Assembly (NCBI RefSeq): GCF_024346315.1
Contig: NZ_JAGQCS010000006.1
Coordinates: forward strand, 124,001 to 188,000
From: Cyanobium sp. ATX 6F1
GTDB lineage: Bacteria > Cyanobacteriota > Cyanobacteriia > PCC-6307 > Cyanobiaceae
Direction of reading: 5' to 3'
Length of the DNA stretch: 64,000 nucleotides
In this document: positions 1 through 13,606 of the stretch, piece after piece
Position numbering within the stretch: position 1 is the first letter of the stretch
How the letters are laid out: every line of letters begins with the position of its first letter
Notes under the pieces: model-generated
Told to the model about the DNA's origin: nothing
Databases searched by the model: none
What the model saw: the letters and a program-made list of their open reading frames with translations, nothing else
Position numbers and translations under genes: made by a program

Positions 1-471
1 AGTATTAAAAGTCATCTCACTAAAGGCATAAAAATACGCAATGAACAAATTGAAGTATACAATAAAAAGGTCCTTGCAGGAGAAGTTAAGGATAAAAAGG
101 GCAAAGTGATCTCCGAGACCCTCCCACAAATTCCTCAAAGAGGTAGAGACGACTTATTAATGATGAATCCATTTTTTGAAAATCGGACAACATATCACAT
201 GGAACATATTAGACAGTGGTTTAATCGAGTTTTGTCTAAGTGTGAATTTGATCGAAGATATACTCTGTATTCGCTCCGTGCTACGCATATATCATTCGCA
301 CTTTTGGATGGTCAAAGAGTTGACCTCGTAGCGAAGAACTGCGGGACATCAATGACAATGATCCAGAAAACATATGATGGGCTTTCTAGTAGGTTCCACT
401 TTGAATCTCTTGGGCTTTTTCAGGAATCCGTATCTAGCCCCGCCAAGGCAGGTAAATTATTGCTTGACTAA
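1..471 (+). CDS. Tyrosine recombinase/phage integrase, C-terminal part (5' end off window)
   Basis: The frame is open from the left edge, so the gene begins outside the window; the GTG at 106 is probably internal. The visible 156 residues carry the C-terminal catalytic signature of tyrosine recombinases: LRATHIS supplies the Arg-x-x-His pair, and TMIQKTYDG holds the likely nucleophilic Tyr about 45 residues later. Such enzymes integrate and excise mobile elements at attachment sites, often tRNA genes. The gene is AT-rich compared with the backbone, and all its neighbours up to 12 kb are accessory. The attachment site is not visible here. A host XerC/D is unlikely given the divergent sequence and composition. 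Confidence 0.8.
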   Translation, partial: SIKSHLTKGIKIRNEQIEVYNKKVLAGEVKDKKGKVISETLPQIPQRGRDDLLMMNPFFENRTTYHMEHIRQWFNRVLSKCEFDRRYTLYSLRATHISFALLDGQRVDLVAKNCGTSMTMIQKTYDGLSSRFHFESLGLFQESVSSPAKAGKLLLD

Positions 472-798: not shown

Positions 799-927
799 TT
801 ATTTCTTGAGTTTGTCGTATTGGTCTTTGACGTAATCCTTTATATACTCATCTGGTTTTCTTCTATTCCTTTTTGCAATTTCTTCTAACATCAAGTATTC
901 AACCTGATTTAATTGTATTGTTTTCAT
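799..927 (-). CDS. Tiny basic/amphipathic protein (42 aa), possible DNA-binding or antitoxin-like
   Basis: The ATG at 927-925 overlaps the TGA of the upstream gene in an ATGA arrangement, a strong sign of translational coupling and the reason for choosing this start. The 42-residue product is dominated by a charged helix: it contains LEEIAKRNRRKPDEYIKDYV and ends in a Lys-rich tail. The pattern of a short strand-like N-terminus (MKTIQLNQ) followed by helices resembles minimal ribbon-helix-helix proteins, but this is inference. It belongs to the three-gene set at 609-1115 beside the recombinase. Confidence 0.5.
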   Translation of the reverse strand: MKTIQLNQVEYLMLEEIAKRNRRKPDEYIKDYVKDQYDKLKK

Positions 928-1115
928 TGAGTTATCCCTTCAGGCAATGGAACATTGCAAGTATTTAAATGATTACCTTCTTTTCTTATTAGGAACTTAA
1001 TCAGGTCAGATTTATTAAGCCTGTAGTGTGAGCATAGATTGTCCCGTATAGAACGTATGTAGCTCTCGTGTTGCTTATAGGACAACTGTTCCCTAATTGG
1101 TTTTGCTGAATTCAT
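924..1115 (-). CDS. Small hypothetical protein (63 aa), first gene of a three-gene mini-operon
   Basis: The ATG is at 1115-1113 and the TGA overlaps the next start by four bases. The product is basic in its first half and contains a likely helical block (SYIRSIRDNLCSHYRLNKSD) that could be a small HTH-like fold, since Tyr-Arg-Leu-Asn-Lys-Ser is the kind of turn/recognition sequence seen in such proteins. The family is not recognised. Its position, divergent from the zinc-finger gene at 1487 and near the recombinase, fits a regulatory or excision-accessory role, but that is only contextual. Confidence 0.5.
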   Translation of the reverse strand: MNSAKPIREQLSYKQHESYIRSIRDNLCSHYRLNKSDLIKFLIRKEGNHLNTCNVPLPEGITQ

Positions 1116-1249
1116 ATTGCATTCTTGTGTAGGCTATGACTATTTAGGCTTCATGAAAAGTATAGTATTCATTGCTTAGGCGTCTTAGACCACTAGATCA
1201 CGAGGAACTAAAGAATGCATAAGTATGTTTTAAAGCATATTATAATTAT

Positions 1250-1272
1250 CCCCTACGGGGATGCCTTCGGCA
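1250..1272. repeat. Two adjacent mini-hairpins
   Basis: CCCC-TAC-GGGG (1250-1260) is followed one base later by TGCC-TTC-GGCA (1262-1272). Each has a four-base stem and a three-base loop. They stand out because the flanking DNA is strongly AT-rich. No U-tract follows on either strand, so a standard terminator is unlikely. Confidence 0.4.
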
Positions 1273-1334
1273 GGTCTATTGTAGCAAGTAATATGTAACT
1301 TAAGGTTGCTTGGAGGAAGAGATCCATCATTGCA

Positions 1335-1401
1335 CTGCGTAGCTATTTAGACATCTGCAATCTTTAAGATAAAGGATGCCTGAACAAGCTGCGTAGTTAT
1401 T
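1335..1401. repeat. Imperfect 13-base direct repeat (two copies)
   Basis: CTGCGTAGCTATT at 1335-1347 recurs as CTGCGTAGTTATT at 1389-1401, one mismatch, copy starts 54 bases apart. It lies in the gene-free stretch upstream of the zinc-finger gene. It could be a protein-binding iteron or chance. Confidence 0.35.
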
Positions 1402-1486
1402 ATACACACAATGCTTATATCTGTCAACTTGACGGATGATTTGAATGGCATTAGTCTAGATGTGTTGTAATAAATACATATAAAAT

Positions 1487-1906
1487 ATGGAATCTCCTAT
1501 TGATCAAAGATACCGATTACTGCTGTTGTATCATTATCTGGATGATGCTGCAGAAAAGATTGTTAGACATAAGTGGATTTTTAGGTGTCCTCACTGTGCT
1601 CCCATAGCACCTACAGAAGGTAAGAGAACACATCGCAAAGGAGCACTATTTTGGAATTCAGCTAGCAACTCCTGGATCTTCTCCTGTGCGAGGAAGGGCA
1701 GTCCATTCTGTCGGGACAACATGGGCTTTCCTCGTTTTATCAGTTCCTTGAATCGAGACCTTGGAGACGCGTATGTTAGAGAGCGTTGGACTTCACGAAC
1801 TACCGGTAAAGGACATAATTGTCCAAACCCTAAAAGGTATCCCCTAAATAGTAATAGGATACCTGGTTCATCGAATGAAAACAAAGAAGCAAAGGATTAC
1901 CTTTAA
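1487..1906 (+). CDS. Stand-alone phage-primase-like zinc-binding domain protein (139 aa)
   Basis: The protein has a C-x2-C pair at residues 34-37 (IFRCPHC) and a second Cys pair near residues 67 and 75. Between them is an Arg/Lys-rich loop and a KGALFWNSASNSWIFSC strand pair. Right after comes FPRFISSLNRDLGDAYVRER (81-100). This order (FRCPxC, basic loop, aromatic strands, xxC, then a helix ending in a Tyr-x-x-Glu-Arg-like motif) matches the N-terminal zinc finger of phage DnaG/gp61-type primases, which reads template DNA. There is no TOPRIM catalytic domain here, so the gene is either a stand-alone finger or a remnant. Its 3' end overlaps the next gene by 32 bases. Confidence 0.55.
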   Translation: MESPIDQRYRLLLLYHYLDDAAEKIVRHKWIFRCPHCAPIAPTEGKRTHRKGALFWNSASNSWIFSCARKGSPFCRDNMGFPRFISSLNRDLGDAYVRERWTSRTTGKGHNCPNPKRYPLNSNRIPGSSNENKEAKDYL

Positions 1907-2228
1907 GGATTTCTTGCAGAGAGTAAAATCCTTTATTGATGTTAGCGATAAGCGTCTAGGAGAATCAACCTTCTACATCTTTCGCACAGACACTCATGCT
2001 GTGCTTGCTCGAAACATCGAGGGCTATGAGACTGCGAAGGCAAAGGCAAACGCTTTAAGAAAGTCTCACCGGTTAAAGTGGTCCCAGGTAAGCTTCAAGT
2101 CTGAAGGAAAAGGGAGTAACACTACTAGTCGAAATAGGATTGATGTTGCCCCTAACTACAATCATTCCAAGAGAACTCACTTTAAGGGTGGGTATGATAA
2201 AAGTGGGAATTATTATGATATTGACTAA
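1875..2228 (+). CDS. Basic hypothetical protein (117 aa) overlapping the zinc-finger gene
   Basis: The ATG at 1875 lies inside the end of the upstream gene, so the two overlap by 32 bases in different frames, and coupling is likely. The product is rich in Lys and Arg, starts MKTKKQRITFKDFLQRVK, and ends with a Gly/Tyr-rich tail (GGYDKSGNYYDID). The charge suggests nucleic-acid contact. The middle (DTHAVLARNIEGYETAKAKA) resembles small phage-derived proteins that carry a strand-helix unit, but no family is recognised. It shares the AT-rich composition of the mobile segment. Confidence 0.5.
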   Translation: MKTKKQRITFKDFLQRVKSFIDVSDKRLGESTFYIFRTDTHAVLARNIEGYETAKAKANALRKSHRLKWSQVSFKSEGKGSNTTSRNRIDVAPNYNHSKRTHFKGGYDKSGNYYDID

Positions 2229-2259: not shown

Positions 2260-2757
2260 CTAATCTGGAAACTTGAATCTTATTCCTTTTTCGTTTTCGC
2301 TGATAATTACATTTGTCCCAAAGCTGCCATCGACTTTTCTGTAGTCAATGAACAAATATTTAAAAAATTCGCATGATATCTGACGATCAGTCAGAACTAT
2401 AGGTTTTGTTAGTACACCCTTAGTAGACGTGAAGGTCGAGTTGATTGCCACTGGCAGATCTTCGTATGTGTTTCTAGTGATTTTACCTGTCGACGAAATT
2501 GCGACATAAGTCAAGTTGGAGTTATAGTGAGTTATGTAAGTTGTTATCTTTTTGCCATTTTGTGATTTGACTAATACAAGATCCCTTATAAACTCACCGT
2601 TGTTTTCGCTGGCTTTGCTAAAAGAGGCTTTCATCCCTTTCGTGGCGAGCTCATCACAGTCTTTGCTTACAGATTCTGGCAGAAAGGAACAGCTCGAAAT
2701 TAATGACAGTGTTATTATTGACGCCATCACACGGATTTCTGTATGTACTTTACTCAT
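2260..2757 (-). CDS. Putative lipoprotein (165 aa)
   Basis: The N-terminus has a short basic stretch, a hydrophobic core (ASIITLSLIS) and a lipobox LISSC with the modifiable Cys at residue 23. This predicts cleavage by signal peptidase II and membrane anchoring. A second possible start, Met11, gives a more usual 12-residue signal peptide. The mature part is about 140 residues, mixed polar, with beta-rich character. No catalytic motif is visible and the family is not recognised. It sits alone on the minus strand at the edge of the AT-rich segment, a place where lipoproteins in mobile elements sometimes act in exclusion or surface change (inference). Confidence 0.6.
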   Translation of the reverse strand: MSKVHTEIRVMASIITLSLISSCSFLPESVSKDCDELATKGMKASFSKASENNGEFIRDLVLVKSQNGKKITTYITHYNSNLTYVAISSTGKITRNTYEDLPVAINSTFTSTKGVLTKPIVLTDRQISCEFFKYLFIDYRKVDGSFGTNVIISENEKGIRFKFPD

Positions 2758-2863
2758 TTAGGCTGCTAGATGCAGGGTACCTGCTAGTTTATCACATTCA
2801 TAATTGTTCTCTGATACCTATTTATTGCCAGCGGGAACTTATTTTTTATTGTCTCTGCATTGC

Positions 2864-3280
2864 CTACCCCCAAAGATCCAACCCAAGTCCCGCCAATGCA
2901 GCTGCCCTTCTCAGGCATGAGGATGCGGCAACCTCAGCAGCAGGTGCCTGGGACTTCGACTCCAGCGGTTCCGATGCAACTGCTGAGTAGTGAAGCAGGT
3001 CTCCATCAGCAGTAGGGATTGTCAAACGACCCGTCACGACAACCGCACCACCAACCTCTTGCACCGATTGCACTTCCCAGCACCAACCAGGAGCACGGTG
3101 ATGAAGGTGACGAGCAATGGTGTTCCAGGGGCAGTAGGTGAGAGTGACCGTTCCCTGCTTCCTGCTCTTCAGGTGCCGGGGGTCAATGGGTCGTGAGAGA
3201 TCGGCAAGGGTTTCGGCAGTGGGTCGAAGAGCAAACTTAGGAGTCGTTGCCTGAGTGCCGTTGCTGGCAGTTTGAAGCAT
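2864..3280 (-). CDS. Rad52-like single-strand annealing protein (138 aa)
   Basis: The product follows the Rad52/Sak layout: LSRPIDPRHLKSRKQG near the start, a CPWNTIARHLHHRAPGWCWE strand-helix unit in the middle, and the diagnostic helix SCLRRAAALAGLGLDLW at the C-terminus (the ALKRAARxFGLGLYL-type motif). Rad52-family proteins of phages anneal complementary single strands during recombination and replication. At 138 residues only the conserved annealing core is present, as in small phage versions. The ATG is 31 bases from a near-consensus promoter (3311-3340), so it can be expressed independently of the genes upstream. Its 3' end coincides with the drop to AT-rich DNA. Confidence 0.65.
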   Translation of the reverse strand: MLQTASNGTQATTPKFALRPTAETLADLSRPIDPRHLKSRKQGTVTLTYCPWNTIARHLHHRAPGWCWEVQSVQEVGGAVVVTGRLTIPTADGDLLHYSAVASEPLESKSQAPAAEVAASSCLRRAAALAGLGLDLWG

Positions 3281-3310
3281 GGTGCTGAATCTCTGTGGAT
3301 TACTTACGTG

Positions 3311-3340
3311 ATTCTAGTGCATGATGCTAGAGAATGTCAA
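3311..3340 (-). promoter_or_regulatory. Near-consensus promoter of the Rad52-like gene
   Basis: On the minus strand TTGACA (3340-3335) is followed after 18 bases by TAGAAT (3316-3311). The -35 matches the sigma-70 consensus fully and the -10 in five of six positions. It starts immediately after the stop of the upstream gene and drives the Rad52-like gene starting at 3280. Confidence 0.65.
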
Positions 3341-3727
3341 TCAGGCGCTCTCTTGTGTGAGGCAGAGATAGGTGCTCACCATCGGTTTTGCCTGCCCTTG
3401 TCTTTGTGCCTGCTGCTGAAGACCCTTGATGGCATCACGAATCTCAGCGGCATAGTCCCAACTCGTTCGGGAGCGTGATTTGAGCATCCATCCACCAGGG
3501 GCACGAACACCAAAGCGGAGTTCAGCATCTGAGAAGATCTCCAGCAACTCGGCATCAATGAATTGCTTCTCCTGCTCCAGGTGTTTCAGGGTTTCTGAAA
3601 TCTCCACTCTCCTGCCAACCATTTGATCCACGCTGAGATCCGCAAGATGCGGGAATGGATCTGCTCCTACGGGGGGCAGGGTCTTCAGTAGGTGCTCCAA
3701 GGCACCAGGAGGTAAAGGAGGGGTCAT
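3341..3727 (-). CDS. Hypothetical protein (128 aa) coupled to a ribbon-helix-helix-like gene
   Basis: The ATG at 3727-3725 overlaps the TGA of the upstream gene (ATGA), which fixes this start; a longer frame to 3775 would run inside the neighbour. The product has a proline-rich N-terminus, then a long charged helix (VEISETLKHLEQEKQFIDAE, about residues 40-60). It ends with FGVRAPGGWMLKSRSRTSWD and a Gln-rich helix. The coiled-coil look suggests an oligomer or partner binding. No family is recognised. It sits just before the Rad52-like gene, so a role in the same recombination module is plausible. Confidence 0.55.
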   Translation of the reverse strand: MTPPLPPGALEHLLKTLPPVGADPFPHLADLSVDQMVGRRVEISETLKHLEQEKQFIDAELLEIFSDAELRFGVRAPGGWMLKSRSRTSWDYAAEIRDAIKGLQQQAQRQGQAKPMVSTYLCLTQESA

Positions 3728-3921
3728 TTTTTGCCGTAGATAGCGCCCTCTTCCACCAATCTGGCGTAGTGGCACTCAATGGCACTCTCCACGATGGATG
3801 CAAGGGTTGTGGGTTGATTGGTGCGTTGACGGAATTCCTGTATCGCTGATACCAGTTCCATCGTCTCTTCGCTCAGTCGAATGCCGAACTGCTTGGGGGC
3901 GTCTGGATGCTCGTTTGCCAT
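3724..3921 (-). CDS. Small ribbon-helix-helix-like protein (65 aa)
   Basis: ATG at 3921-3919, TGA overlapping the next start. The sequence QFGIRLSEETMELVSAIQEF gives a short strand followed by a helix beginning Ser-Glu-Glu, as in CopG/Arc-type proteins. A second helix (TLASIVESAIECHYARLVEE) follows, typical of the RHH second helix. Such dimers bind DNA operators and often act as antitoxins or copy/transfer regulators. Coupling to the 128-residue partner raises the possibility of a two-gene regulatory or toxin-antitoxin unit, but the partner has no recognised toxin motif. Confidence 0.6.
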   Translation of the reverse strand: MANEHPDAPKQFGIRLSEETMELVSAIQEFRQRTNQPTTLASIVESAIECHYARLVEEGAIYGKK

Positions 3922-3988
3922 TTCTGCTGGTTTTGGGTTGTAGGAGTTTGACAGCTGACACCGCCAACACCAGCAGGAATCCAAGAAT

Positions 3989-4204
3989 TCATCGTGATGG
4001 CACCAGGGCGTGTTCTTCAGCGGCGTTGAATGACTGCTCCATGGTCTGATGACTGGAGAGGGTTCTGGTTTCCCAGCACATCTCCTCGACCTGAGTGCGA
4101 CGGCAAAGGTCAAAGGTGCCGGTGAAGCGGGAGAACCGGATGGAGAGACCCTCCCGATCGGGGCAGGTGAAATGCCAGGAGAAGGGTGTGATTTGCTGGA
4201 GCAC
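3989..4204 (-). CDS. Small hypothetical protein (71 aa) with duplicated promoter/leader
   Basis: The frame begins with GTG at 4204-4202 and ends at 3989. On protein features alone it would be doubtful: 71 residues, mixed charge, two Cys in the first half (one in HFTCPDREG) and one later. The supporting evidence is the leader: a 16-base element carrying AGAGG at a proper distance before the GTG is identical to the element before the ATG of the gene at 4329, and both share a 15-base extended -10 region. Function unknown. Confidence 0.45.
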   Translation of the reverse strand: MLQQITPFSWHFTCPDREGLSIRFSRFTGTFDLCRRTQVEEMCWETRTLSSHQTMEQSFNAAEEHALVPSR

Positions 4205-4208
4205 TGGG

Positions 4209-4291
4209 AACCTCTATGGGTTTCGTTGAAATGGGTTGAGAGGGGCGGGTTTCTGTGAACCTCTTGCCCGTCGACGCAATAACTATAGCAT
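4209..4291 (-). promoter_or_regulatory. Promoter/leader, copy 1 (extended -10 plus shared ribosome-binding leader)
   Basis: On the minus strand TGCTATAGT is an extended -10 (TATAGT at 4287-4282) within the 15-base block 4277-4291. Then, 52 bases downstream, comes a 16-base leader (4224-4209) with AGAGG just before the GTG start at 4204. Both blocks recur exactly at 4668-4705. Confidence 0.6.
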
Positions 4292-4328
4292 AAAAAGCTG
4301 GTTTCCTGTTGCCTTGTGCTCTTTTGGG

Positions 4329-4661
4329 TCAGAATGGTGCTGGTTGAGCGGACGCCACCTCCACGGCAAGAGCATCCAGAATCTGCTCCTCCACTGACCG
4401 GCATGGATTGCTTAACTCACTGAAGCGAACATCGAGCACCTGAACGAACAGGGAGGCGAATTCACTGCTGACGGTGCTGGCGAGTAGGTCAGCGGCAAAT
4501 GCCCAGTGCTCCAACATCAGCGCCTTGCTGAGTTGTCCATCGGCAGCGGCATCAGTGGATTCTTGTTCCCACAGGCAGCAGTGGTTTTGGATGGCGGCGA
4601 CAATCACGCCCTGGGCGGCATTCAGGGTCGCCAGGTCAATCGTGGAAAGGTCGGAAGGCAT
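4329..4661 (-). CDS. Hypothetical protein (110 aa) with duplicated promoter/leader
   Basis: The ATG at 4661-4659 is chosen because a 16-base leader with AGAGG sits just upstream; the frame could be extended to 4829 but would then cross the promoter. The product is acidic and mostly helical: STIDLATLNAAQGVIVAAIQ, then LMLEHWAFAADLLASTVSSE, and a final helix VEEQILDALAVEVASAQPAP. No catalytic or metal-binding motif is seen. It is divergent from the HTH gene at 4773, whose product might regulate it. Confidence 0.5.
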   Translation of the reverse strand: MPSDLSTIDLATLNAAQGVIVAAIQNHCCLWEQESTDAAADGQLSKALMLEHWAFAADLLASTVSSEFASLFVQVLDVRFSELSNPCRSVEEQILDALAVEVASAQPAPF

Positions 4662-4667
4662 GGTCTG

Positions 4668-4705
4668 AACCTCTATGGGTTTCTTTGACACAATAACTAT
4701 AGCAT
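4668..4705 (-). promoter_or_regulatory. Promoter/leader, copy 2 (extended -10 plus shared leader)
   Basis: The 15-base block 4691-4705 contains TGCTATAGT on the minus strand (TATAGT at 4701-4696). After seven bases comes the 16-base leader 4683-4668 with AGAGG, then the ATG at 4661. Both blocks are identical to copy 1 at 4209-4291, but here they are close together, so the start of the transcript would lie within or next to the leader. No good -35 is visible, as expected for extended -10 promoters. Confidence 0.6.
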
Positions 4706-4772
4706 GTGATGCTGGTTCCTGGTGACTACTTGCTCGTTTGCTGTCGCTTGGTGCTTGAGGTATGGTGTCTTC

Positions 4773-5024
4773 ATGGCAAAGCAAGTTCGTCTGACCCTCG
4801 CCAAGGCAATCGCCAAGGCAAATCTGCATCGTGCAGAGTCAGGGGAGAAACCCTGGACGATGAACTCCCTGGCGGTTGCTGCTGGTGTTGCGGCAACCAC
4901 CATTACCCGCTTGGCGCGGTCCGATGACAAGGCAGCATCAGCACTCTCTCTGGATCTGGCGGGTAAGGTGGTGACGGTGCTGGATTGTGGGATTGAAGAT
5001 TTGTTGGAGGTTGTTGAGTCGTAG
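4773..5024 (+). CDS. Helix-turn-helix regulator (83 aa), XRE/Cro-like
   Basis: The start at 4773 (MAKQVRLTLAKAIAKAN) is preferred over an in-frame ATG at 4722, which overlaps the divergent promoter. The segment MNSLAVAAGVAATTITRLAR (about residues 30-49) is a typical HTH: a helix, a Gly turn, and a recognition helix with Thr-Thr-Ile-Thr-Arg. The tail ending in Asp-Cys-Gly-Ile-Glu-Asp-Leu-Leu is also usual for Cro/C1-type proteins. It ends 13 bases from the hsdR stop, convergent with the type I RM operon, and is divergent from the gene at 4329. It could act as a controller of the RM island or of the duplicated promoters (inference). Confidence 0.65.
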   Translation: MAKQVRLTLAKAIAKANLHRAESGEKPWTMNSLAVAAGVAATTITRLARSDDKAASALSLDLAGKVVTVLDCGIEDLLEVVES

Positions 5025-5037
5025 TGTTCAGTCAGAA

Positions 5038-8000
5038 CTACTTTTCCAAGGCATCAGCGTCCACTGTTTCAATCTTCTTGCCGAGGTCTTCCCTTGACCA
5101 CTCTTCGGAAATCATTTCGGTCTGCTGTAGAACCAGGTCAATCGCTGATGCCTCTTGATCGGGTGGATACTTATATCGCTTGAGAAGTGCCTTGATCATC
5201 GTTCGCAGTCGTGCCCGAACGTTCTCCTTGTATTGCCAATCAATGCTGAGATTACCCCTAAGTTTTTCTGCCAGTTCCCGTGCCATCTTCATCAGCACCT
5301 CATCACCCATCAGGTCGTGTGCTGATTGGTTGTTCCCCAGGGCGTCATAGAAAGCAATCTCAGCAGTCGATAGACCCATTGCCGCAACTCTTTCTGCCTC
5401 ATCACGGAACTGCTTTGCCATCGCAATCAGTTCTTCGATCACCTGTGCTGCTTCGATTGAGCGGTTGGTGTATTTGTTCAGTGATGCCTGGAGCAGTTCG
5501 CTAAATCGCTTCTGCTTGACCACATTGGTCTTGAAGCGTGTAGAGACCTCTTCTCTTAGCAACCGCTGAAGCAGTTCTACTGCCAAGTTCTTCTGGGGGA
5601 TCTTGCTGACTTCTGCCAGGAATGAATCCGACAGGATGCTGATGTCTGGTTTTTCAAGACCTGCCACCTTGAAAACATCGGTGATTCCATCTGCGACAAG
5701 TGCCTGTGACATCAGTTGCCGCAACTCAAAATCAACATTCTTGGGGGCACCATTGCCGCCAAGAATGTCTTCTCCCTTGATCAGCGGTGCTCTTATCGCC
5801 TGAAGAAATGCGACCTCCTGATCAAGTGCCAATGCTTCATCAGTAGTGCCGCAAAGAGCAAATGCTTTGGTCATCGATAGCACCGTGTCGCAATATCGCT
5901 TCTTGCCATCAGATATTGCGAGGATGTGATCCAAACTGATGGGCAGGAGTTCCATCGCCGTCTTTGGATCCCTGAATCCACTCCAGTCGATTGGGTGGAG
6001 CAGATCTTTGGCAACCTGAAGTTTTTCCTTGAGGATTCGCAGCACCTCACTGGTGTCGATTGTTGGAGCACCCTTGCCCTTGGCAGCGGTGTAGGTCGCC
6101 AGTGCTTCCTTGAGTTGCGGTGCGATGCCGATGTAATCGACCACCAGACCGCCTGGTTTGTCTTTGAAAACCCTGTTGACCCTGGCAATCGCCTGCGCCA
6201 GGTTTGCCCCCTTCATCGGTTTATCCACATACATCGTCGCCAGGCACGGAGCATCGAACCCCGTCAACCACATATCCCGCACCAGCACGATCCTCAATGG
6301 GTCAGCAGGATCCTTGAACCGTTTCTCCAGATCTTTTTTTTGCTGCTTGCTGGTGTGATGCGGTTGAAGGTGAGGTTCATCAGATGCCGATGCCGTCATC
6401 ACCACCTTGATCGCTCCTTTCTTGGGATCGTCGTCGTGCCATTCGGGGCGTAGGGCAACGATGGCGGCATAGAGGCGAGCACAGATGTCTCGACTCATCA
6501 GCACACCAAGCGCCTTCCCTGGTTGGGTTTTGGATCGCTGCTCAAAGTGGGTGATCAAATCTGCTGCCACCTGCTTCAGGCGAGGTTCAGCACCCACCAG
6601 TGCCTCCAGTGCTGCCCACCTGCTTTTTGCCCGTTCAGCAGCAGGAATGTCGTCTTCATCTGAGAAGAGGTCATCCACCTGCTCATCCACCTGGGGCAGC
6701 AGTGGATCCTTGAGCGCCAGTTTTGCCAGGCGTGATTCGTAGTAGATCGGCACCGTGGCACCGTCTTCCACTGCCTGCTGAATGTCGTAGATGGAGACGT
6801 AGTGCCCAAAGACCGCTTGGGTGTCTCGATCTTCCTGGGAGATGGGAGTGCCCGTAAAGGCAAGGAAGGTCGCCTGGGGCAAGGCATCTCTGAGTGCCTT
6901 TGCCATTCCGTATTTGATTTCCCCTGTCTTGGCATCGAACCGTGCCTTGAACCCGTATTGGGTGCGGTGTGCCTCATCGCAGATCACCACGATGTTGCGG
7001 CGCTCGCTCAGGGTGGGAAAACGGTCTTCCCCAGATTCAGCAGCGAACTTCTGAATGGTGGTGAAGATGATGCCACCACTGGGTCGGTTGGCGAGCAGAT
7101 CCCTCAGTTCCTGGCGACTGTCTGCCTGCTGAGGGTTCTCGCCCAGTAGATCACCAGCACCTGAGAAGACCCCAAACAACTGACCATCCAGATCCTGGCG
7201 GTCGGTGACCATCACCAGGGTGGGGTTCTCAAGGCGAGGGTCAGTGAGCAACTTGCCTGCCAGACACGCCATCTCGATGCTTTTGCCAGCGCCCTGGGTG
7301 TGCCAGACGACGCCTCCCTTCTTGTCGCCATCAGGTCTGCTTGCCTTCACCACCTGCTCGACTGCCGCCCTGACAGCGTGGAACTGGTGGTAGGCAGCAA
7401 CCTTTTTGATGATCTGCCCGTCTTCTTCGAACAGGCAGAAGGAGCGAATGAAATCCAGGAACCGCCCCCGCTCAAACATCCCCCGCACCAAGGTCTCCAG
7501 ATCACGGTGAGCACCTAATGGATCGAGGTCGTTCTCCCCTGAAATGGTGCGCCATCGCTGGAACCGTTCCCGATCAGCACTCAATGAACCTGCTCTTGCC
7601 TGAATGCCATCGCTGATCACCAGCAGCACATTGGGCGTGAACAGGTCGGGGATGTCGGTTTTGTAGGTCTGGAGTTGGTTGAACGCTGCCCAGATGTCTG
7701 CCTTCTCATCGGCAGGGTTCTTCAGTTCGATCACCGCCAGAGGGAGACCGTTGAGGTAGACCACCACATCAGGGCGGCGGTTGTGCTTCGTGCCTTGGAT
7801 CGCCAACTGATTCACCGCCAACCAGTCATTGGCAGCAGGGTCATCAAACCCGATCACCTTGAGGCGGATCCCCACCTGCTGGTTCCCATCCATATAGGTG
7901 ATGGGTAATCCCTGGGTCATCCAGCGGTGGAAGTTGCGGTTTGATGCCAGTAGACCAGGCACGTTGGGGTTCGCCAGTTGAAGCACCGCGACTTCGATGG

Positions 8001-8196
8001 TTCCCGCAGGAACATCAGGGTTCAGGCGCTTCAGTGCTGAACGCAGTCGCCCCTGGAGGACGACCTGGCGAAAGTCGGATCGTTCTGGGGTTCTGCCGTC
8101 GCTGTCGAGTTGGGGGGCAAAGACGTGTTTGTATCCCAGATCCTTGAACCACTCAAGGCACTGCTGCTCCAGATGGTCTTCTGTGATCAGTGCCAT
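5038..8196 (-). CDS. hsdR: Type I restriction enzyme, endonuclease/translocase subunit HsdR
   Basis: At 1052 residues this is a full-length HsdR. The N-terminal nuclease domain shows RPD at 141-143 and IELK at 156-159, the PD-(D/E)xK catalytic set. The motor has Walker A QGAGKS (301-306) and the DEAH box (about 407-410), followed by a SAT-like TGT motif in FLAFTGTPISQEDRD. HsdR joins the HsdM/HsdS complex, pulls DNA toward itself with ATP and cuts unmethylated DNA at a distance. The start overlaps the hsdS stop by one base (TGATG). No frameshift is visible, so the gene looks functional. It is the last gene of the operon and converges with the HTH gene. Confidence 0.95.
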   Translation of the reverse strand: MALITEDHLEQQCLEWFKDLGYKHVFAPQLDSDGRTPERSDFRQVVLQGRLRSALKRLNPDVPAGTIEVAVLQLANPNVPGLLASNRNFHRWMTQGLPITYMDGNQQVGIRLKVIGFDDPAANDWLAVNQLAIQGTKHNRRPDVVVYLNGLPLAVIELKNPADEKADIWAAFNQLQTYKTDIPDLFTPNVLLVISDGIQARAGSLSADRERFQRWRTISGENDLDPLGAHRDLETLVRGMFERGRFLDFIRSFCLFEEDGQIIKKVAAYHQFHAVRAAVEQVVKASRPDGDKKGGVVWHTQGAGKSIEMACLAGKLLTDPRLENPTLVMVTDRQDLDGQLFGVFSGAGDLLGENPQQADSRQELRDLLANRPSGGIIFTTIQKFAAESGEDRFPTLSERRNIVVICDEAHRTQYGFKARFDAKTGEIKYGMAKALRDALPQATFLAFTGTPISQEDRDTQAVFGHYVSIYDIQQAVEDGATVPIYYESRLAKLALKDPLLPQVDEQVDDLFSDEDDIPAAERAKSRWAALEALVGAEPRLKQVAADLITHFEQRSKTQPGKALGVLMSRDICARLYAAIVALRPEWHDDDPKKGAIKVVMTASASDEPHLQPHHTSKQQKKDLEKRFKDPADPLRIVLVRDMWLTGFDAPCLATMYVDKPMKGANLAQAIARVNRVFKDKPGGLVVDYIGIAPQLKEALATYTAAKGKGAPTIDTSEVLRILKEKLQVAKDLLHPIDWSGFRDPKTAMELLPISLDHILAISDGKKRYCDTVLSMTKAFALCGTTDEALALDQEVAFLQAIRAPLIKGEDILGGNGAPKNVDFELRQLMSQALVADGITDVFKVAGLEKPDISILSDSFLAEVSKIPQKNLAVELLQRLLREEVSTRFKTNVVKQKRFSELLQASLNKYTNRSIEAAQVIEELIAMAKQFRDEAERVAAMGLSTAEIAFYDALGNNQSAHDLMGDEVLMKMARELAEKLRGNLSIDWQYKENVRARLRTMIKALLKRYKYPPDQEASAIDLVLQQTEMISEEWSREDLGKKIETVDADALEK

Positions 8197-9515
8197 CAGA
8201 TGCTCATCTCCTCAAGCATTCGCTCAGCATCAGGGATTCGGATTTCACCTGAGATGAGTTTGGGGAGGAGGGCATCACGCAAATCACTGAGATGCTGGGT
8301 TTCTTTCTGGCAGATCTTGATGGATGAGAATAGGGAGGTAGTGGTATCGCAGAATGCTCTTACAATGTCACCGCTTGGGGTAAGAAGCGGCATATCTCTG
8401 AGTATTTGCGAGTTTACCGCTGTAGCGATAGAGGATGTGCTGCCAAGAGAGTGGTAATCATATTGAGACAGCAAGCAGTATGTGTATTCAAACCCCGCCT
8501 CAGATCTCAGGGGAGAGAAATGAGCAATCGCTTCATTCGTGAGCATCTCACAAGCAGTGATTGCAACCCTTCCTACGGTGAGTTTGAAACTAACGATAAC
8601 CGTATTCGCTGGAACGACCTTGACATTGAATCTTTCTACCGCTTCTCTGGTCAGGCATTCCGATGCTCTGTAAGCAAATACGCCTGCCTCGCCAAGATCT
8701 CGGATTGACAACCACGGAACATCAAGGTGACCACACGAAAACCAATGCGCCTCTTTCCTTGGAGGAGTTTTGCCAATAGATATCTGGTATTGATTACCTG
8801 CTGACTGAATCTTCCACCCACTCGGAATTTCACCCAGTTCCGAATCCTCAAATGAATCTGCGAATAGGTCGCTGATCTCATCAGGTAATCCAGTCGGGCG
8901 ACCTTCTGCCTTTGCTCTTACTGGATCGAAATCCACAAACCACGACTTGAAGAGCGCCTTTGCCATCGCCTCCAAGGTTTCGTTGGTCTTGCGGTTGAGT
9001 TCGATCTTATCGTCGAGGGTGCCGAGGATATGAGCGATTGCTTGCTGAATCCATAGTTCTGGAAGGTGTATGGATGTTTCTTCGATGCCGCCTGCGCTTA
9101 TATTCGGTTGAGCAGACCCATACGCTTTCTGCTCGATCTCGCTTCGCACCTCTTTGCTCTTGAGGTGAAAGAAAAGGAAGGAGGGGTCTATTAGTGCTTT
9201 GTTGTAAGAATGAAACCTCCCCACTCTCTGGTTCAAGGCACAAGGCGTATCCGCTTCTCGCACTCTCGCTACATCTCCAACATATCCTGTCATTGATATC
9301 AATATGTCTCCCTGCTCAAGCAGGAAGTCTCTTGCTTGATGTGCGACAACTTCTGAGACATATGAGCATCCATCCATCTCAAGGCGCCCTTCTTTCACGT
9401 TCGCTATCTTCACCACTGGAATCCCAGTGCTCTGCCAGTCACTGCTTTTGAAGGCAAAACCTGACCTGACTCTGGCGACACTACTTATTGATACTTGAGG
9501 ATAGTCAGAACTCAT
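8196..9515 (-). CDS. hsdS: Type I restriction enzyme, specificity subunit HsdS
   Basis: The 439-residue protein has the two-half HsdS layout. The first target-recognition domain starts with SVARVRSGFAFKSSDW. The central conserved helix is in IAHILGTLDDKIELNRKTNE and is followed by FKSWFVDFDPVRAKAEG. The second recognition domain starts with GEIPSGWK. A C-terminal conserved helix contains LSDLRDALLPKLISGEI. Each recognition domain reads one half of the split DNA target. The start at 9515 (MSSDYPQ) overlaps hsdM by 11 bases; a start at 9542 is possible but lies deeper in hsdM. The recognition half-sites cannot be told from sequence. GC is a little lower than in hsdM and hsdR, as is common for exchanged TRDs. 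Confidence 0.93.
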   Translation of the reverse strand: MSSDYPQVSISSVARVRSGFAFKSSDWQSTGIPVVKIANVKEGRLEMDGCSYVSEVVAHQARDFLLEQGDILISMTGYVGDVARVREADTPCALNQRVGRFHSYNKALIDPSFLFFHLKSKEVRSEIEQKAYGSAQPNISAGGIEETSIHLPELWIQQAIAHILGTLDDKIELNRKTNETLEAMAKALFKSWFVDFDPVRAKAEGRPTGLPDEISDLFADSFEDSELGEIPSGWKIQSAGNQYQISIGKTPPRKEAHWFSCGHLDVPWLSIRDLGEAGVFAYRASECLTREAVERFNVKVVPANTVIVSFKLTVGRVAITACEMLTNEAIAHFSPLRSEAGFEYTYCLLSQYDYHSLGSTSSIATAVNSQILRDMPLLTPSGDIVRAFCDTTTSLFSSIKICQKETQHLSDLRDALLPKLISGEIRIPDAERMLEEMSI

Positions 9516-11400
9516 ATCCCAACCTCCTGAGGTTCTCAGCAATCTGCTGATCCAACCTTGCCCCTTCTTCCTGTTGCTGCTTCAGCAGACGAGTGAGGCG
9601 CTTCATCTTCTCCTCAAATGCCTCGCCATCGACTTCAACATCTGCTGCTCCCACATAACGCCCAGGCGTGAGCACAAAACCATTCTTTTCAATCTCTCCT
9701 AACTTGGCGCTGTAGCAGAACCCAGCAACATCCTCATAAGTATCAGTCACCTCGCCATTGCCACGCCAGGCGTGAACGGCAGCAGCAATCTTGTCAATAT
9801 CCTCATCCGTCAGCACACGGTTGACCCGTGTTTCCATTGTTCCCATCTTGCGAGCATCAATAAACAAGGTCTCGCCCCTTCGATCACGACCACGCTGGGT
9901 CTTGTCGTTCGACAGGAACCAGATGCAGGCAGGAATCTGAGTATTGAAAAACAACTGACTGGGCATTGCCACCATTGCTTCCACCACATCGCCCCGCACC
10001 ATCGCTTCTCTTATCTGCCCCTCTCCACTCTGATTGGAACTCATTGATCCATTGGCAAGAATGACCCCTGCTTGTCCCCCTGGTCGCAGTTTCCAGAGGA
10101 TGTGTTGTAACCATCCATAGTTGGCATTACCGGCTGGTGGGCGTCCAAACTTCCAGCGGGGATCAATTTCGTATTTTTCGCCTCCCCAATCGGAGATATT
10201 GAAAGGCGGGTTTGCCATTATATAATCAAATTTGAGATCAGGGTATTGATCTCTTGAGAACGTGTCTGCAGGTTCTTGCCCCAAGTCGGCGGCGAAACCA
10301 CGAATCGCCAGATTCATTGCCGCCAATCGCCAGGTTGTTGGATTGCTCTCCTGTCCGTAAATCGAAATATCATCTCGTCTGCCACCGTGCGATTCAACAA
10401 ACTCTTCGCTGTAGACAAACATTCCGCCTGTTCCACAGCAGGGGTCATACACTCTGCCCCGATGTGGTGCCAAGACGGCAACAAGAAGTTTGACCCCAGA
10501 TGGAGGAGTTAAAAACTCACCACCTTTTTTGCCTTCTGCGAGTGCAAACAGACCAAGAAAGTAAGAGTAGACCTCTCCCAGTATGTCTCCTGATTTCTTG
10601 CTATCTCCAAAACCGATGGTGGAGATCAGATCCACCAGTTCGCCCATGCGTCCTGGTTCTAGTTGAGCGGCACCAAATCGCTTATCTAACTTGCCCCGCA
10701 GTGTTGGGTTCTCGTTCTCGATGGCGACCAGTGCCTTGTCGATCAGTTGCCCGATCTCAGGTTGCTTTGCCTTTGCTCGTAGTGATTCCCAGCGAGCATC
10801 AGCAGGCACCCAGAACACGTTTTCTTGGGTGTAGTAGTCGCGATCCTCCAGTGATGCTTGCTGCTCTGCTGGGTCGTCTCCTACGTAGTTGTCCGATTCT
10901 GGGTCGCTCACCATCACCAGCACCTTTTGCTGCTGCTCGACAAAGGTGTCTGAGATGTATTTGAGGAAGATCAGCCCCAGAACCAAATGCTTGTATTCCG
11001 CCGCATCCATCTGTGCCCGCAGTTTGTCGGCACTCGCCCAGAGCACTGCTTTGAAATCCTTGGCGGGTGTTTCCTTCTTCGCTTTGCCTCGACCGTTGCC
11101 ACTGGGAGCAGCGGATGCCTCATAACGACCACCGCCCTCAATGCCTTCTGCAAGGCGAATGGTTCCTCCTCTCCCTTGTCCTTTGAGGATCAGACCCAGA
11201 CCCACCAAGCGGTCTTTGACTGTTGTGTATTCCTCTTCATCTATCTGGCGCTCCGCTGCCCGACCCAGTGCTTCTCTTGCTGAAAGGTTCCCAATCGTGC
11301 TGCCGTCCCCTGGAAGCACCTCCAGCAGCAGATCCCCCAGGTCGTCTTCTAGGTCGTCCTCTTCGCTCAGATCAGTCGCAAAGCTTGCTGAGTCGCTCAA
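9505..11400 (-). CDS. hsdM: Type I modification methylase HsdM (N6-adenine)
   Basis: The 631-residue protein has the SAM-binding motif DPCCGTGGM (319-327) and the catalytic motif NPPF (397-400), which mark gamma-class adenine-N6 methylases. A helical N-terminal domain (about 117-290, starting KAVLWASADKLRAQ) is usual for HsdM. Ahead of it lies an extra segment of about 110 residues: an acidic stretch (SEEDDLEDDLGD), a winged-helix-like unit ending in LKGQGRGGTIRL (about 72-83), and a Gly/Lys linker. HsdM methylates the host copy of the target and forms the complex core with HsdS. It is first in the operon; its promoter should lie in 11401-11522. Confidence 0.95.
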   Translation of the reverse strand: MSDSASFATDLSEEDDLEDDLGDLLLEVLPGDGSTIGNLSAREALGRAAERQIDEEEYTTVKDRLVGLGLILKGQGRGGTIRLAEGIEGGGRYEASAAPSGNGRGKAKKETPAKDFKAVLWASADKLRAQMDAAEYKHLVLGLIFLKYISDTFVEQQQKVLVMVSDPESDNYVGDDPAEQQASLEDRDYYTQENVFWVPADARWESLRAKAKQPEIGQLIDKALVAIENENPTLRGKLDKRFGAAQLEPGRMGELVDLISTIGFGDSKKSGDILGEVYSYFLGLFALAEGKKGGEFLTPPSGVKLLVAVLAPHRGRVYDPCCGTGGMFVYSEEFVESHGGRRDDISIYGQESNPTTWRLAAMNLAIRGFAADLGQEPADTFSRDQYPDLKFDYIMANPPFNISDWGGEKYEIDPRWKFGRPPAGNANYGWLQHILWKLRPGGQAGVILANGSMSSNQSGEGQIREAMVRGDVVEAMVAMPSQLFFNTQIPACIWFLSNDKTQRGRDRRGETLFIDARKMGTMETRVNRVLTDEDIDKIAAAVHAWRGNGEVTDTYEDVAGFCYSAKLGEIEKNGFVLTPGRYVGAADVEVDGEAFEEKMKRLTRLLKQQQEEGARLDQQIAENLRRLGYEF

Positions 11401-11522: not shown

Positions 11523-11738
11523 ATGGCACCTCTCACCACATCGGCGATCACACTGGAACTGCTGCATGACACCCTGCTTACCCTCGACGCCATAGGCACA
11601 GGCGTAACTGCACTTGCCCTGGAGGCATCGGCGCATCCAGAGAAATCCCCACGGGTGAGGGTTTTGCTGGAAGGCTTCCAGGCGTTGCTACAAGACTGCG
11701 AAGACGATCTGGGGATTTACGCCGCTCTGGATTCCTGA
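11523..11738 (+). CDS. Small hypothetical protein (71 aa)
   Basis: The ATG at 11523 opens 71 codons ending TGA. The product is helical and acidic: AITLELLHDTLLTLDAIGTG, then RVRVLLEGFQALLQDCEDD. It lies divergent from hsdM (122 bases between starts) and overlaps the end of the minus-strand gene at 11717 by 22 bases. Base composition matches the RM segment rather than the very GC-rich backbone. The frame can be extended upstream to 11223, but that would run antisense through the hsdM start. No family is recognised. Confidence 0.45.
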   Translation: MAPLTTSAITLELLHDTLLTLDAIGTGVTALALEASAHPEKSPRVRVLLEGFQALLQDCEDDLGIYAALDS

Positions 11739-12007
11739 GACCTCAGACATCGCTTGGTCTGCTGGCGTTGTTGGAACCCCCACGGGTTTCCCTTGATCAC
11801 CTTCCCGCAGTGCTCACAGATAGTTGTCGGTATCCCCTTGACCCAGTTGGAGGGTCTCTCTTCTACAAACTCTCGCCTTAAGGGATCGTTGCCTCGCCCC
11901 TTTTGGTAGCGGGTAAGTGCAGGGGCGGTGGTGATTAAACCAGTCTCAAGGCAGCGGAAAAGTAGGTTTTGACCTCTCAGGTTCATGTGTCGCTTCATCT
12001 GTGGCAT
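11717..12007 (-). CDS. Small zinc-ribbon-like hypothetical protein (96 aa)
   Basis: The product contains CEHCGKVI near residue 64, one half of a zinc knuckle, and another Cys close to the C-terminus (KRCLRSQ), plus many basic residues. The N-terminal half (RCLETGLITTAPALTRYQKG) and the Trp-Val-Lys-Gly-Ile segment resemble DNA-contacting parts of HNH-type or homing-related proteins, but the HNH catalytic residues are not seen. Three in-frame Met codons at the start leave the exact N-terminus open. It is the last accessory gene before the composition changes to backbone. Confidence 0.45.
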   Translation of the reverse strand: MPQMKRHMNLRGQNLLFRCLETGLITTAPALTRYQKGRGNDPLRREFVEERPSNWVKGIPTTICEHCGKVIKGNPWGFQQRQQTKRCLRSQESRAA

Positions 12008-12241: not shown

Positions 12242-13606
12242 TTGGCGACCCACGAAATCTTCATGCCCGCCCTCAGCTCCACGATGACGGAGGGCAAGAT
12301 CGTGGAGTGGCTGAAGAAGCCCGGCGACCCGGTGGCCCGGGGTGAATCGGTGCTGGTGGTCGAATCCGACAAGGCCGACATGGATGTCGAGTCGTTTGAG
12401 GAGGGCTTTCTGGCCACTGTGCTGCTGCCCGCCGGCGGCACCGCGCCCGTGGGCGAGACCATCGGCTTGATCGTCGAAACCGAGGCCGAGATCGCGGCGG
12501 TGGCGGCCTCGGCGCCCGCCGCCCCCATGGCGGCCGCTCCCGCAGCGCCGACTGCTCCCGCCGCTGCCGTGCCCGCTCCTTTGGCCGCAGCGCCAGCCCC
12601 GGCCTCCGTTGCAGCGCCTGTGGCCGTGGCAGCCCCTGCCCCTGTGGTCACCCCTGCCGTGCCGGCGCCCGCCAATGGTGACGGCCGTCTGGTGGCCACC
12701 CCCCGGGCCCGGAAGCTCGCCTCCCAGCTGGGGGTGGCCCTGGCGGGTCTGCGCGGCAGCGGCCCCGGCGGCCGTGTTCAGGCTGAAGACGTTGAGCTGG
12801 CTGCTGGGCGGGCCGTGAGCGTGCCCCGGGTGGCGGAAGGCACCGCCCCCGCCGCGCTGGCGCCCCCGGGCGCTCCCGGCTCCAACGGCGCCGCAACAGC
12901 CCCGGCCCCGGCCGGCCAGAGCTTCGGCGCCCCCGGCGAGACGGTGGCCTTCAACACCCTGCAGCAGGCGGTCAACCGCTCGATGCTGGCCAGCCTCGAG
13001 GCCCCCACCTTCCGGGTGGGCTACACGATCACCACCGACAAGCTCGACGCTTTTTATAAGCAGGTGAAACCCAAGGGCGTCACGATGACCGCCCTGCTGG
13101 CCAAGGCGGTGGCGCTCACCCTCGCCCGCCACCCCCAGCTCAATGCCGCCAACAGCCCCACGGGCATGGCCTATCCGGCGGCCATCAACGTGGCCGTGGC
13201 TGTGGCCATGGACGACGGCGGCCTGGTGACACCGGTGCTGGCGGCCGCCGATCGCACCGATCTCTATGCCCTCTCGCGCAACTGGGCCGACCTGGTGGCC
13301 CGGGCGCGCACCAAGCAGCTCAAGCCCGACGAATACAGCACCGGTAGCTTCACGCTCTCCAACCTCGGCATGTTCGGGGTCGATCGCTTCGATGCGATCC
13401 TCCCCCCCGGCACCGGCGCGATCCTGGCGGTGGCCGCCTCGCGGCCCGTGGTGGTGGCGCTCAAGGACGGCTCGATTGCCGTGCGCCGGCAGATGCAGGT
13501 GAACCTCACCGCCGACCACCGGGTGATCTACGGCACCCACGCCGCCGCCTTCCTCCAGGATCTGGCCCGCCTGATCGAGACCAACCCTGAAAGCCTGGCC
13601 CTCTGA
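12242..13606 (+). CDS. pdhC: Pyruvate dehydrogenase E2, dihydrolipoamide acetyltransferase
   Basis: The 454-residue protein begins with TTG and reads [20 protein letters not shown]. The lipoyl domain has the acceptor Lys44 in ESDKADMD. An Ala/Pro-rich flexible linker (about 85-145) follows, then the E1/E3-binding domain ([13 protein letters not shown], about 155-185). The C-terminal catalytic domain ends with ADHRVIYG near residue 425: the catalytic His is present, but the usual Asp of HxxxDG is Tyr, as I recall for cyanobacterial and plastid E2. It passes acetyl groups from E1 to CoA. pdhA, the E1-alpha gene, is far away at 61,964, while queA follows after five bases. It is the first clear backbone gene. 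Confidence 0.93.

Follow-up and report, generated by a model that had tools for sequence, protein, structure and literature searches.

In Cyanobium sp. ATX 6F1, the duplicated control cassette of a small gene module consists of a structured RNA leader, not of a regulon acting at the DNA level. It lies in the window analysed here (the whole stretch of 64,000 nucleotides) and serves a module of five genes, A to E, carried by an integrative element of 13.3 kb that also encodes a type I restriction-modification (R-M) operon. We are highly confident that the repeat represents an RNA stem-loop leader. The chances are about even that the cassette is a putative extended -10 promoter followed by a conserved 5'-leader RNA which works as a translational operator with a trans-acting factor. 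We infer an effect of the leader RNA on translation, its binding by a protein, and a repressive sense of the control.

Two blocks make up the cassette. The promoter block consists of 15 bases in two exact copies at 4277-4291 and 4691-4705 (plus strand CAATAACTATAGCAT, minus strand ATGCTATAGTTATTG), and the leader block of 17 bases in two exact copies at 4208-4224 and 4667-4683 (plus strand GAACCTCTATGGGTTTC, minus strand GAAACCCATAGAGGTTC). The initial annotation had described two blocks occurring twice without mismatch; exact copies of both were indeed found in the window, with the leader block one base longer than annotated. By inspection, the promoter blocks of gene A (4691..4705, minus strand) and gene B (4277..4291, minus strand) each contain the putative extended -10 element TGCTATAGT. 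Gene E has a promoter-like site, TTGACA-18-TAGAAT, at 3311..3340 on the minus strand. A third, diverged copy of the leader block, overlooked in the initial annotation, stands before gene E at 3287-3303, with 3 mismatches across 3287-3301. Between promoter and leader block there are 52 bases in the gene B copy and 7 in the gene A copy. This change, already recorded in the initial annotation, is real, but it is not mere spacing, because it reflects a second hairpin, likewise overlooked there, which is present in one copy and absent from the other. Any duplicated 15-mer appeared in only 2 of 1000 dinucleotide shuffles of window positions 2701-5000, and the real sequence holds two separate duplicated blocks. 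In the genome of 2,964,692 bases, the 15-mer matches these two sites alone, even with up to 2 mismatches allowed. A random or genome-wide repeat was ruled out by this search together with the leader-model searches described below.

Plausible genes stand behind the blocks, as had been proposed. Gene A (4329..4661, minus strand) encodes an acidic orphan of 110 amino acids (pI 4.05) that is predicted to form a helical hairpin (pLDDT 80.7). Ten homologs align with it at 45-66% identity, and a Foldseek search with the model returned nothing significant, the best match being Snf7 at E 0.45. Gene B (3989..4204, minus strand) starts with GTG and encodes an orphan of 71 amino acids; of the loci compared, only L063 and L065 have homologs, which are 62% identical. 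A small ORF of 39 amino acids (3873..3992, minus strand), seen in the sequence only, overlaps the end of B and the start of C; in relatives without B, a similar putative PAG-GG peptide comes after the leader. Gene C (3724..3921, minus strand; 65 amino acids) is ribbon-helix-helix-like by inspection, and family searches gave no significant match (best E 0.099). Gene D (3341..3727, minus strand) encodes 128 amino acids with a predicted coiled coil and beta-hairpin (pLDDT 82.4). Comparison of its model with solved folds gave no significant match. A weak RecE-like match against PHROGs, found in 8 of 10 members (best 0.0029), was not relied on.

On the sense strand, the leader block folds into a small stem-loop, hairpin 2, composed of a G, one unpaired base, 4 base pairs, the loop CA(N)AGA, and a closing C. 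In the gene A leader (4667..4683, minus strand) it reads GA-AACC[CAUAGA]GGUU-C, with the Shine-Dalgarno sequence AGAGG(U) in the loop and 3' arm, and the gene B hairpin 2 (4208..4224, minus strand) is identical. The gene E counterpart (3287..3303, minus strand), GU-AAUC[CACAGA]GAUU-C, has a different stem and a loop alike in kind. Long leaders carry a stronger hairpin 1 upstream of hairpin 2, with a loop of like kind. In the gene B leader, hairpin 1 (4240..4272, minus strand) comprises an inner GAGGUU[CACAGA]AACCC at 4247-4263 and an outer GGGC/GCCC. It occupies most of the 52-base gap and is missing from the short gene A copy. Hairpin 2 occurs alone in the 13 E leaders, by inspection, and in 4 of 14 A leaders (window, L066, L070, and the first A of L068).

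Across 41 leaders, hairpin 2 lies on the sense strand just before the start codon, overlapping the Shine-Dalgarno region. The step with the unpaired base is GA in 32 rows, GC in 7, GT in 1, and GN in 1. The loops follow CA(N)AGA with N of 1-4, one of the 41 rows (L067:6720) being misaligned by one base. Stems are AACC/GGTT (26), ACTC/GAGT (6), ATCC/GGAT (3), AATC/GATT (3), ACTC/GGGT (1), and GACT/AGTC (1). In 22 rows of hairpin 1, the loops are CA(N)AG(A/C) with N of 1-2, inside a G+C outer stem, and the inner stems are GGTT/AACC (12), AACT/AGTT (7), and GACT/AGTC, AATC/GATT, and GATT/AATC (one each). As the stems vary and the loop stays constant, the conserved unit is the loop, the unpaired base, and the existence of a stem. 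Locus L069 alone contains several different stems with a loop of one kind, which suggests that the loop and bulge, not the arm sequence, would be read. With the structure imposed, hairpin 2 has a mean energy of -0.35 kcal/mol (n=41, range -1.0 to 4.8) and hairpin 1 of -9.9 kcal/mol (n=22). Folded as single sequences, three leader stretches of the window gave z 0.40 to 0.50, no advantage over shuffles, and hairpin 2 is absent from the minimum-energy fold of the E stretch; the long leader of L065 folds better than shuffles (z -2.27). Near 6700 in L067 and 8190 in L068, an unrelated G+C inverted repeat replaces hairpin 1 upstream of hairpin 2, at places where the B/C promoter is not seen within the operon.

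Covariation was assessed in two alignments. The first, A2, contains 41 leaders from 14 loci and 12 genomes, placed by start-codon position and not by pairing. It leaves out, from 42 position-defined leaders, that of gene A in L073, where the 5' arm is deleted and the frame cut short. In A2, 99.0% of 200 cells are paired, with both-side changes in 4 of 5 pairs, and sliding by one column lowers pairing to at most 57%. Covariation scores 0.334, whereas shuffles average 0.125 and none of 500 reached the observed value, a control that overstates significance because the leaders share descent. Further pair types, 7 against 6.3 in shuffles, showed no excess. The second alignment, A3, holds 22 long leaders. 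The inner stem of hairpin 1 is 100% paired, with both-side changes in 4 of 5 pairs, and the whole 17-pair structure is paired in 99.2% of 366 cells. Both-side changes affect 6 pairs (shuffled mean 4.0; 7 of 500 reached 6), and further pair types fall below the shuffles, at 10 against 12.2. The four short A leaders named above and the L073 A leader were left out of A3, as were the C leaders of L067 and L068, which have no hairpin 1 of the A3 type. Unguided RNAalifold recovers both hairpins. The AGAGG of hairpin 2, in loop and arm, is expected from its Shine-Dalgarno role alone. The leader set excludes L075-L079 and the E fragment in L063 (9960). In L075, L076, and L078, A and/or E homologs occur without the hairpin, and L077 and L079 contain fragments.

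The module recurs in related loci as an HTH gene divergent from A, (B), C, D, and E. In G031, a gene A homolog has homologs of C, D, and E as neighbours; A and E are each preceded by the leader block, and C by a version of it with an enlarged loop. Two covariance models, R1 for the long leader and R2 for hairpin 2, were searched against 23 whole genomes; R1 matched in 15 at E 0.01 and R2 in 16 at E 1. The 57 R2 matches consist of the 41 training rows, 13 held-out sites, and 3 with E of at least 0.77. In each of the 13 held-out sites the four stem pairs are intact, with G-U counted as a pair; for L152:1839 the pairing was read by eye after the script's pattern missed it. Eleven of them precede a module gene, a remnant, or an expected start (the gene at L151:192 lies at a contig end). 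Among the 54 matches with E <0.1, 52 are found before a module gene or where one would start, in agreement with the initial expectation of small ORFs behind the blocks. The other two (L071, L077) adjoin an HTH gene encoded on the opposite strand, and no gene A could be recognised after them.

Wider R1 scans, run with stricter filters at the cost of weak matches, gave matches in 17 of 400 family genomes, representing 8 of 59 genera, and in a class sample of 194 genomes only in the window's own genome. Four of the 17 genomes (G383, G240, G109, G199) have decayed or remote copies with hairpins partly degraded. The loci of these copies are L158-L161; no clear module protein follows the one in G199, L161. 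Two of the eight genera (g10, g82) have decayed copies in the loci inspected. In the run on 23 genomes, R1 also matched in G087, beside an HTH gene and an E fragment, and at G104:C2 (E 0.0097). The hairpin is absent before the A and E homologs of G087 and G156 and before the E homolog of G261. A remote version of the module at L075:8065-8899 has E followed by A, with no D found; its gene A is preceded by a different hairpin, GGGAGG-UCAA-CCUCCC. In the 64-kb window, a strict hairpin pattern matches 4 sites, all in the module and all sense, before A, B (two), and E, whereas 100 shuffles gave a mean of 0.39 and a maximum of 2. The sequence pattern AAACCCNNAGAGGTTC occurs in 14 of 400 family genomes and its backwards-read control in 9 of 400, so single matches are near chance level. 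One of them, L080 in G078, has no module gene, and G010 and G084 also matched.

The marginal energy of hairpin 2 means that a partner would be needed to hold it closed. A weak lid with a kept loop and an unpaired base has the look of a protein-clamped translational operator. In the proposed mechanism, a factor acting in trans, in the simplest case an RNA-binding protein from the element itself, would read the CA(N)AGA loop and the unpaired base and clamp the intrinsically weak hairpin 2 over the Shine-Dalgarno sequence. Translation of A, B/C-D, and E would thereby be limited together, hairpin 1 might offer a second or loading site for the factor, and the regulon would be one small module. The recurrence of the same leader before as many as three transcription units would allow one factor to control how much the entire module produces. 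Genes C and D are candidates for the factor by co-occurrence only. Gene D is present in 16 of 27 genomes tested: the 13 inspected genomes with leaders before module genes, among which G148 has D only in pieces, and G071, G240, and G109, which have fragments. It was not found in G087 or G156, where no hairpin precedes the homologs of A and E. As D lies inside the regulated operon, its co-occurrence with the leader is weak evidence. Family searches gave no RNA-binding homology for any module protein. The full proposal, put forward tentatively as one possibility, is that a new RNA-binding regulator, perhaps D or C, reads the CA(N)AGA stem-loop over the module's Shine-Dalgarno sequences and keeps the restriction-carrying element quiet.

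The leader RNA might also act without any protein, with hairpin 1 as a stabiliser of the mRNA 5' end or hairpin 2 as a Shine-Dalgarno lid sensitive to temperature or to ribosomes. In its favour, hairpin 1 is stable and follows shortly after the -10 box, and the marginal stability of hairpin 2 is that expected of an RNA thermometer. However, a bare lid or stabiliser needs neither the CA(N)AGA loop nor the unpaired base, both of which are seen in both hairpins, and the loop is also kept in hairpin 1, away from the Shine-Dalgarno site. We regard this explanation as rather doubtful. Less can be said for a twin-hairpin riboswitch for a small ligand, analogous to guanidine-II, which appears improbable. 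Two small stem-loops with like loops and free stem sequence before a Shine-Dalgarno region do give a layout similar to that described for guanidine-II. Yet the CA(N)AGA loop differs from ACGR and varies in length by up to 3 bases, hairpin 2 stands alone in the 13 E leaders and in 4 of 14 A leaders, and recombination-like or orphan genes follow the leaders. No known RNA family was matched. Rfam 15 (4227 families), searched with window positions 2700-5100 at E up to 5, gave only a sub-threshold mir-8 match, and at gathering score nothing but a tRNA was detected in L065, L069, and L066. Among the titles and abstract openings listed, none describes a leader of this kind, although it may already have been published.

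The initial annotation had attributed the cassettes to a single DNA-binding regulator, perhaps the divergent small HTH protein (HTH_26) encoded at 4773..5024 on the plus strand. The blocks would then be the promoter and DNA operator of one transcription factor. It is true that the HTH gene is divergent from gene A in most loci compared and that the promoter blocks are alike. The arms, however, covary around a fixed asymmetric loop on the sense strand, and recognition of RNA fits arms that change together better than a DNA operator with fixed half-sites would. In addition, three leaders occur in G031, an assembly of about 30 contigs with an estimated completeness of 100%, and a search of it at E 0.001 gave no relative of the HTH protein, which indicates that the protein is not needed for the leaders to persist. 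G019 has the HTH gene and no leader match. None of the 54 R2 matches with E <0.1 precedes the HTH gene in its own sense. On the stem covariation and the case of G031, the DNA-operator regulon of the HTH protein was rejected as the main reading, and we consider it very improbable.

Gene E (2864..3280, minus strand) encodes 138 amino acids and is a probable relative of the Sak/DUF1071 single-strand annealing proteins. It aligns over most of its length with phrog_3290 (E 8e-4), and scores 14.7 bits against Sak (PF06378), for which the Pfam gathering score is 22.3. Relatives with 32-35% identity occur on 6 cyanobacterial plasmids, 4 of them annotated as DUF1071. A phage or virus origin of the gene was rejected, as the phage collection gave no match and neither did IMG/VR, searched by peptide patterns. 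At E 0.001, 25 of 400 family genomes have a homolog, in some cases only as a weak or fragmentary match. Fragments of E in G069, G103, G128, and G087, often its 3' half, are located near or apart from full copies, and the 3' end of the gene resembles a recurrent junction of insertion or recombination. A relationship to annealing proteins and the recurring fragments would suit hairpins acting as single-stranded DNA, for example as substrates of E or of a recombinase, with their position before genes being incidental. This is highly improbable given that hairpin 2 is placed in the sense orientation over the Shine-Dalgarno region in all 41 leaders. A recent duplication of the leader with no function beyond promoter and ribosome-binding site would explain the identity of the window's copies across 17 and 15 bases, but it is scarcely credible beside cassettes of the same layout in other genera (the 8 of 59 with R1 matches, 2 of them with decayed copies) and compensatory changes in the stems.

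In the window, the leader RNA, which we retain as the preferred explanation, belongs to a mobile element. The R-M operon comprises HsdR, the type I restriction subunit (5038..8196), HsdS, the specificity subunit (8196..9542), and HsdM, the methyltransferase (9505..11400), all on the minus strand. At the left end of the window, positions 1..471 on the plus strand encode the C-terminal part of an integrase (Phage_int_SAM_5; 455 amino acids in full, L147:15104-16471) that starts upstream of the window. The right 15-bp direct repeat, the attachment site, lies at 12242..12256 (plus strand) and marks the beginning of an E2 gene, called pdhC-like on inspection. The left repeat lies upstream of the window (L147:14951-14965, equal to G000:C6:122951-122965). 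At the empty site in the related genome G001 (L157), the two flanks overlap by exactly those 15 bases, and the insert measures 13,291 bp with one repeat counted. For the window's element, integrase, flanking direct repeat, and empty site in a relative were thus all found. A close HsdR relative is located near the HTH gene in L064 (in two pieces), L070, L149, and L006 (where the contig begins inside HsdR), C-terminal HsdR remnants occur at L077 and L150, and the neighbours differ at the remaining loci. An ORF of 96 amino acids containing cysteines (window 11717-12007), located at the element's right end, has relatives near R-M genes or module copies in L073, L081, L149, L150, L159, and L160. 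Near the integrase lie three small ORFs of 63, 139, and 117 amino acids (window 924-2228), and in several loci their relatives flank the module on that side too. Family searches with them gave nothing significant apart from a weak phrog_451 match for the 139-residue ORF. The loci compared bear out the idea that small unrelated genes in a defence-carrying region share promoter/leader cassettes. The further suggestion of a defence or anti-defence regulon holds in part: the region does carry defence genes, but the hsd genes of the window have no leader, and the genes behind the window's leaders are E, the probable annealing-protein relative, and orphans.

Several known systems invite comparison. 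Controller (C) proteins are encoded by small HTH genes beside R-M operons, and the window likewise has a small HTH gene adjoining an R-M operon. In contrast, its conserved elements are RNA-type hairpins that do not precede the HTH or hsd genes, and the regulator is not present wherever the operator is, as G031 illustrates. The guanidine-II riboswitch has the loop ACGR in both hairpins, whereas the picocyanobacterial loops are CA(N)AG(A/C) or CA(N)AGA. Moreover, E and some A leaders have a single hairpin, the genes have no known link to guanidine, and the leader has no Rfam match. The likeness lies in the two small stem-loops of like sequence in a leader, as outlined for guanidine-II (mini-ykkC; for example PMC5486947). 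Gene E resembles the Sak/DUF1071 proteins in aligning with phrog_3290 and with plasmid proteins, most of them annotated as DUF1071, and differs from them in scoring below the Pfam gathering threshold and in having no match in the phage collection.

When a leader hairpin keeps its loop while its stem covaries, recognition by a specific RNA-binding protein or by a ligand is the usual explanation. If confirmed, the operator would add an RNA layer to the control of mobile defence elements, turn five poorly known genes into a testable regulon, and provide a small loop-recognition system for use in cyanobacteria. A further likeness is to the coat-protein operators of phages such as MS2 and PP7, small stem-loops with an unpaired purine on the 5' side, a conserved loop, and an overlapping ribosome-binding site. 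Hairpin 2 similarly overlaps the ribosome-binding site and has an unpaired base on its 5' side. It differs in its CA(N)AGA loop, in the second stem-loop often found upstream, and in that no coat protein is seen; moreover, several genes in a single chromosomal module share the leader, and in most loci each of them has a promoter of its own. If the proposed reading is true, these leaders would represent a chromosomal counterpart of the phage coat-protein operators in the mobile, defence-carrying modules of picocyanobacteria.
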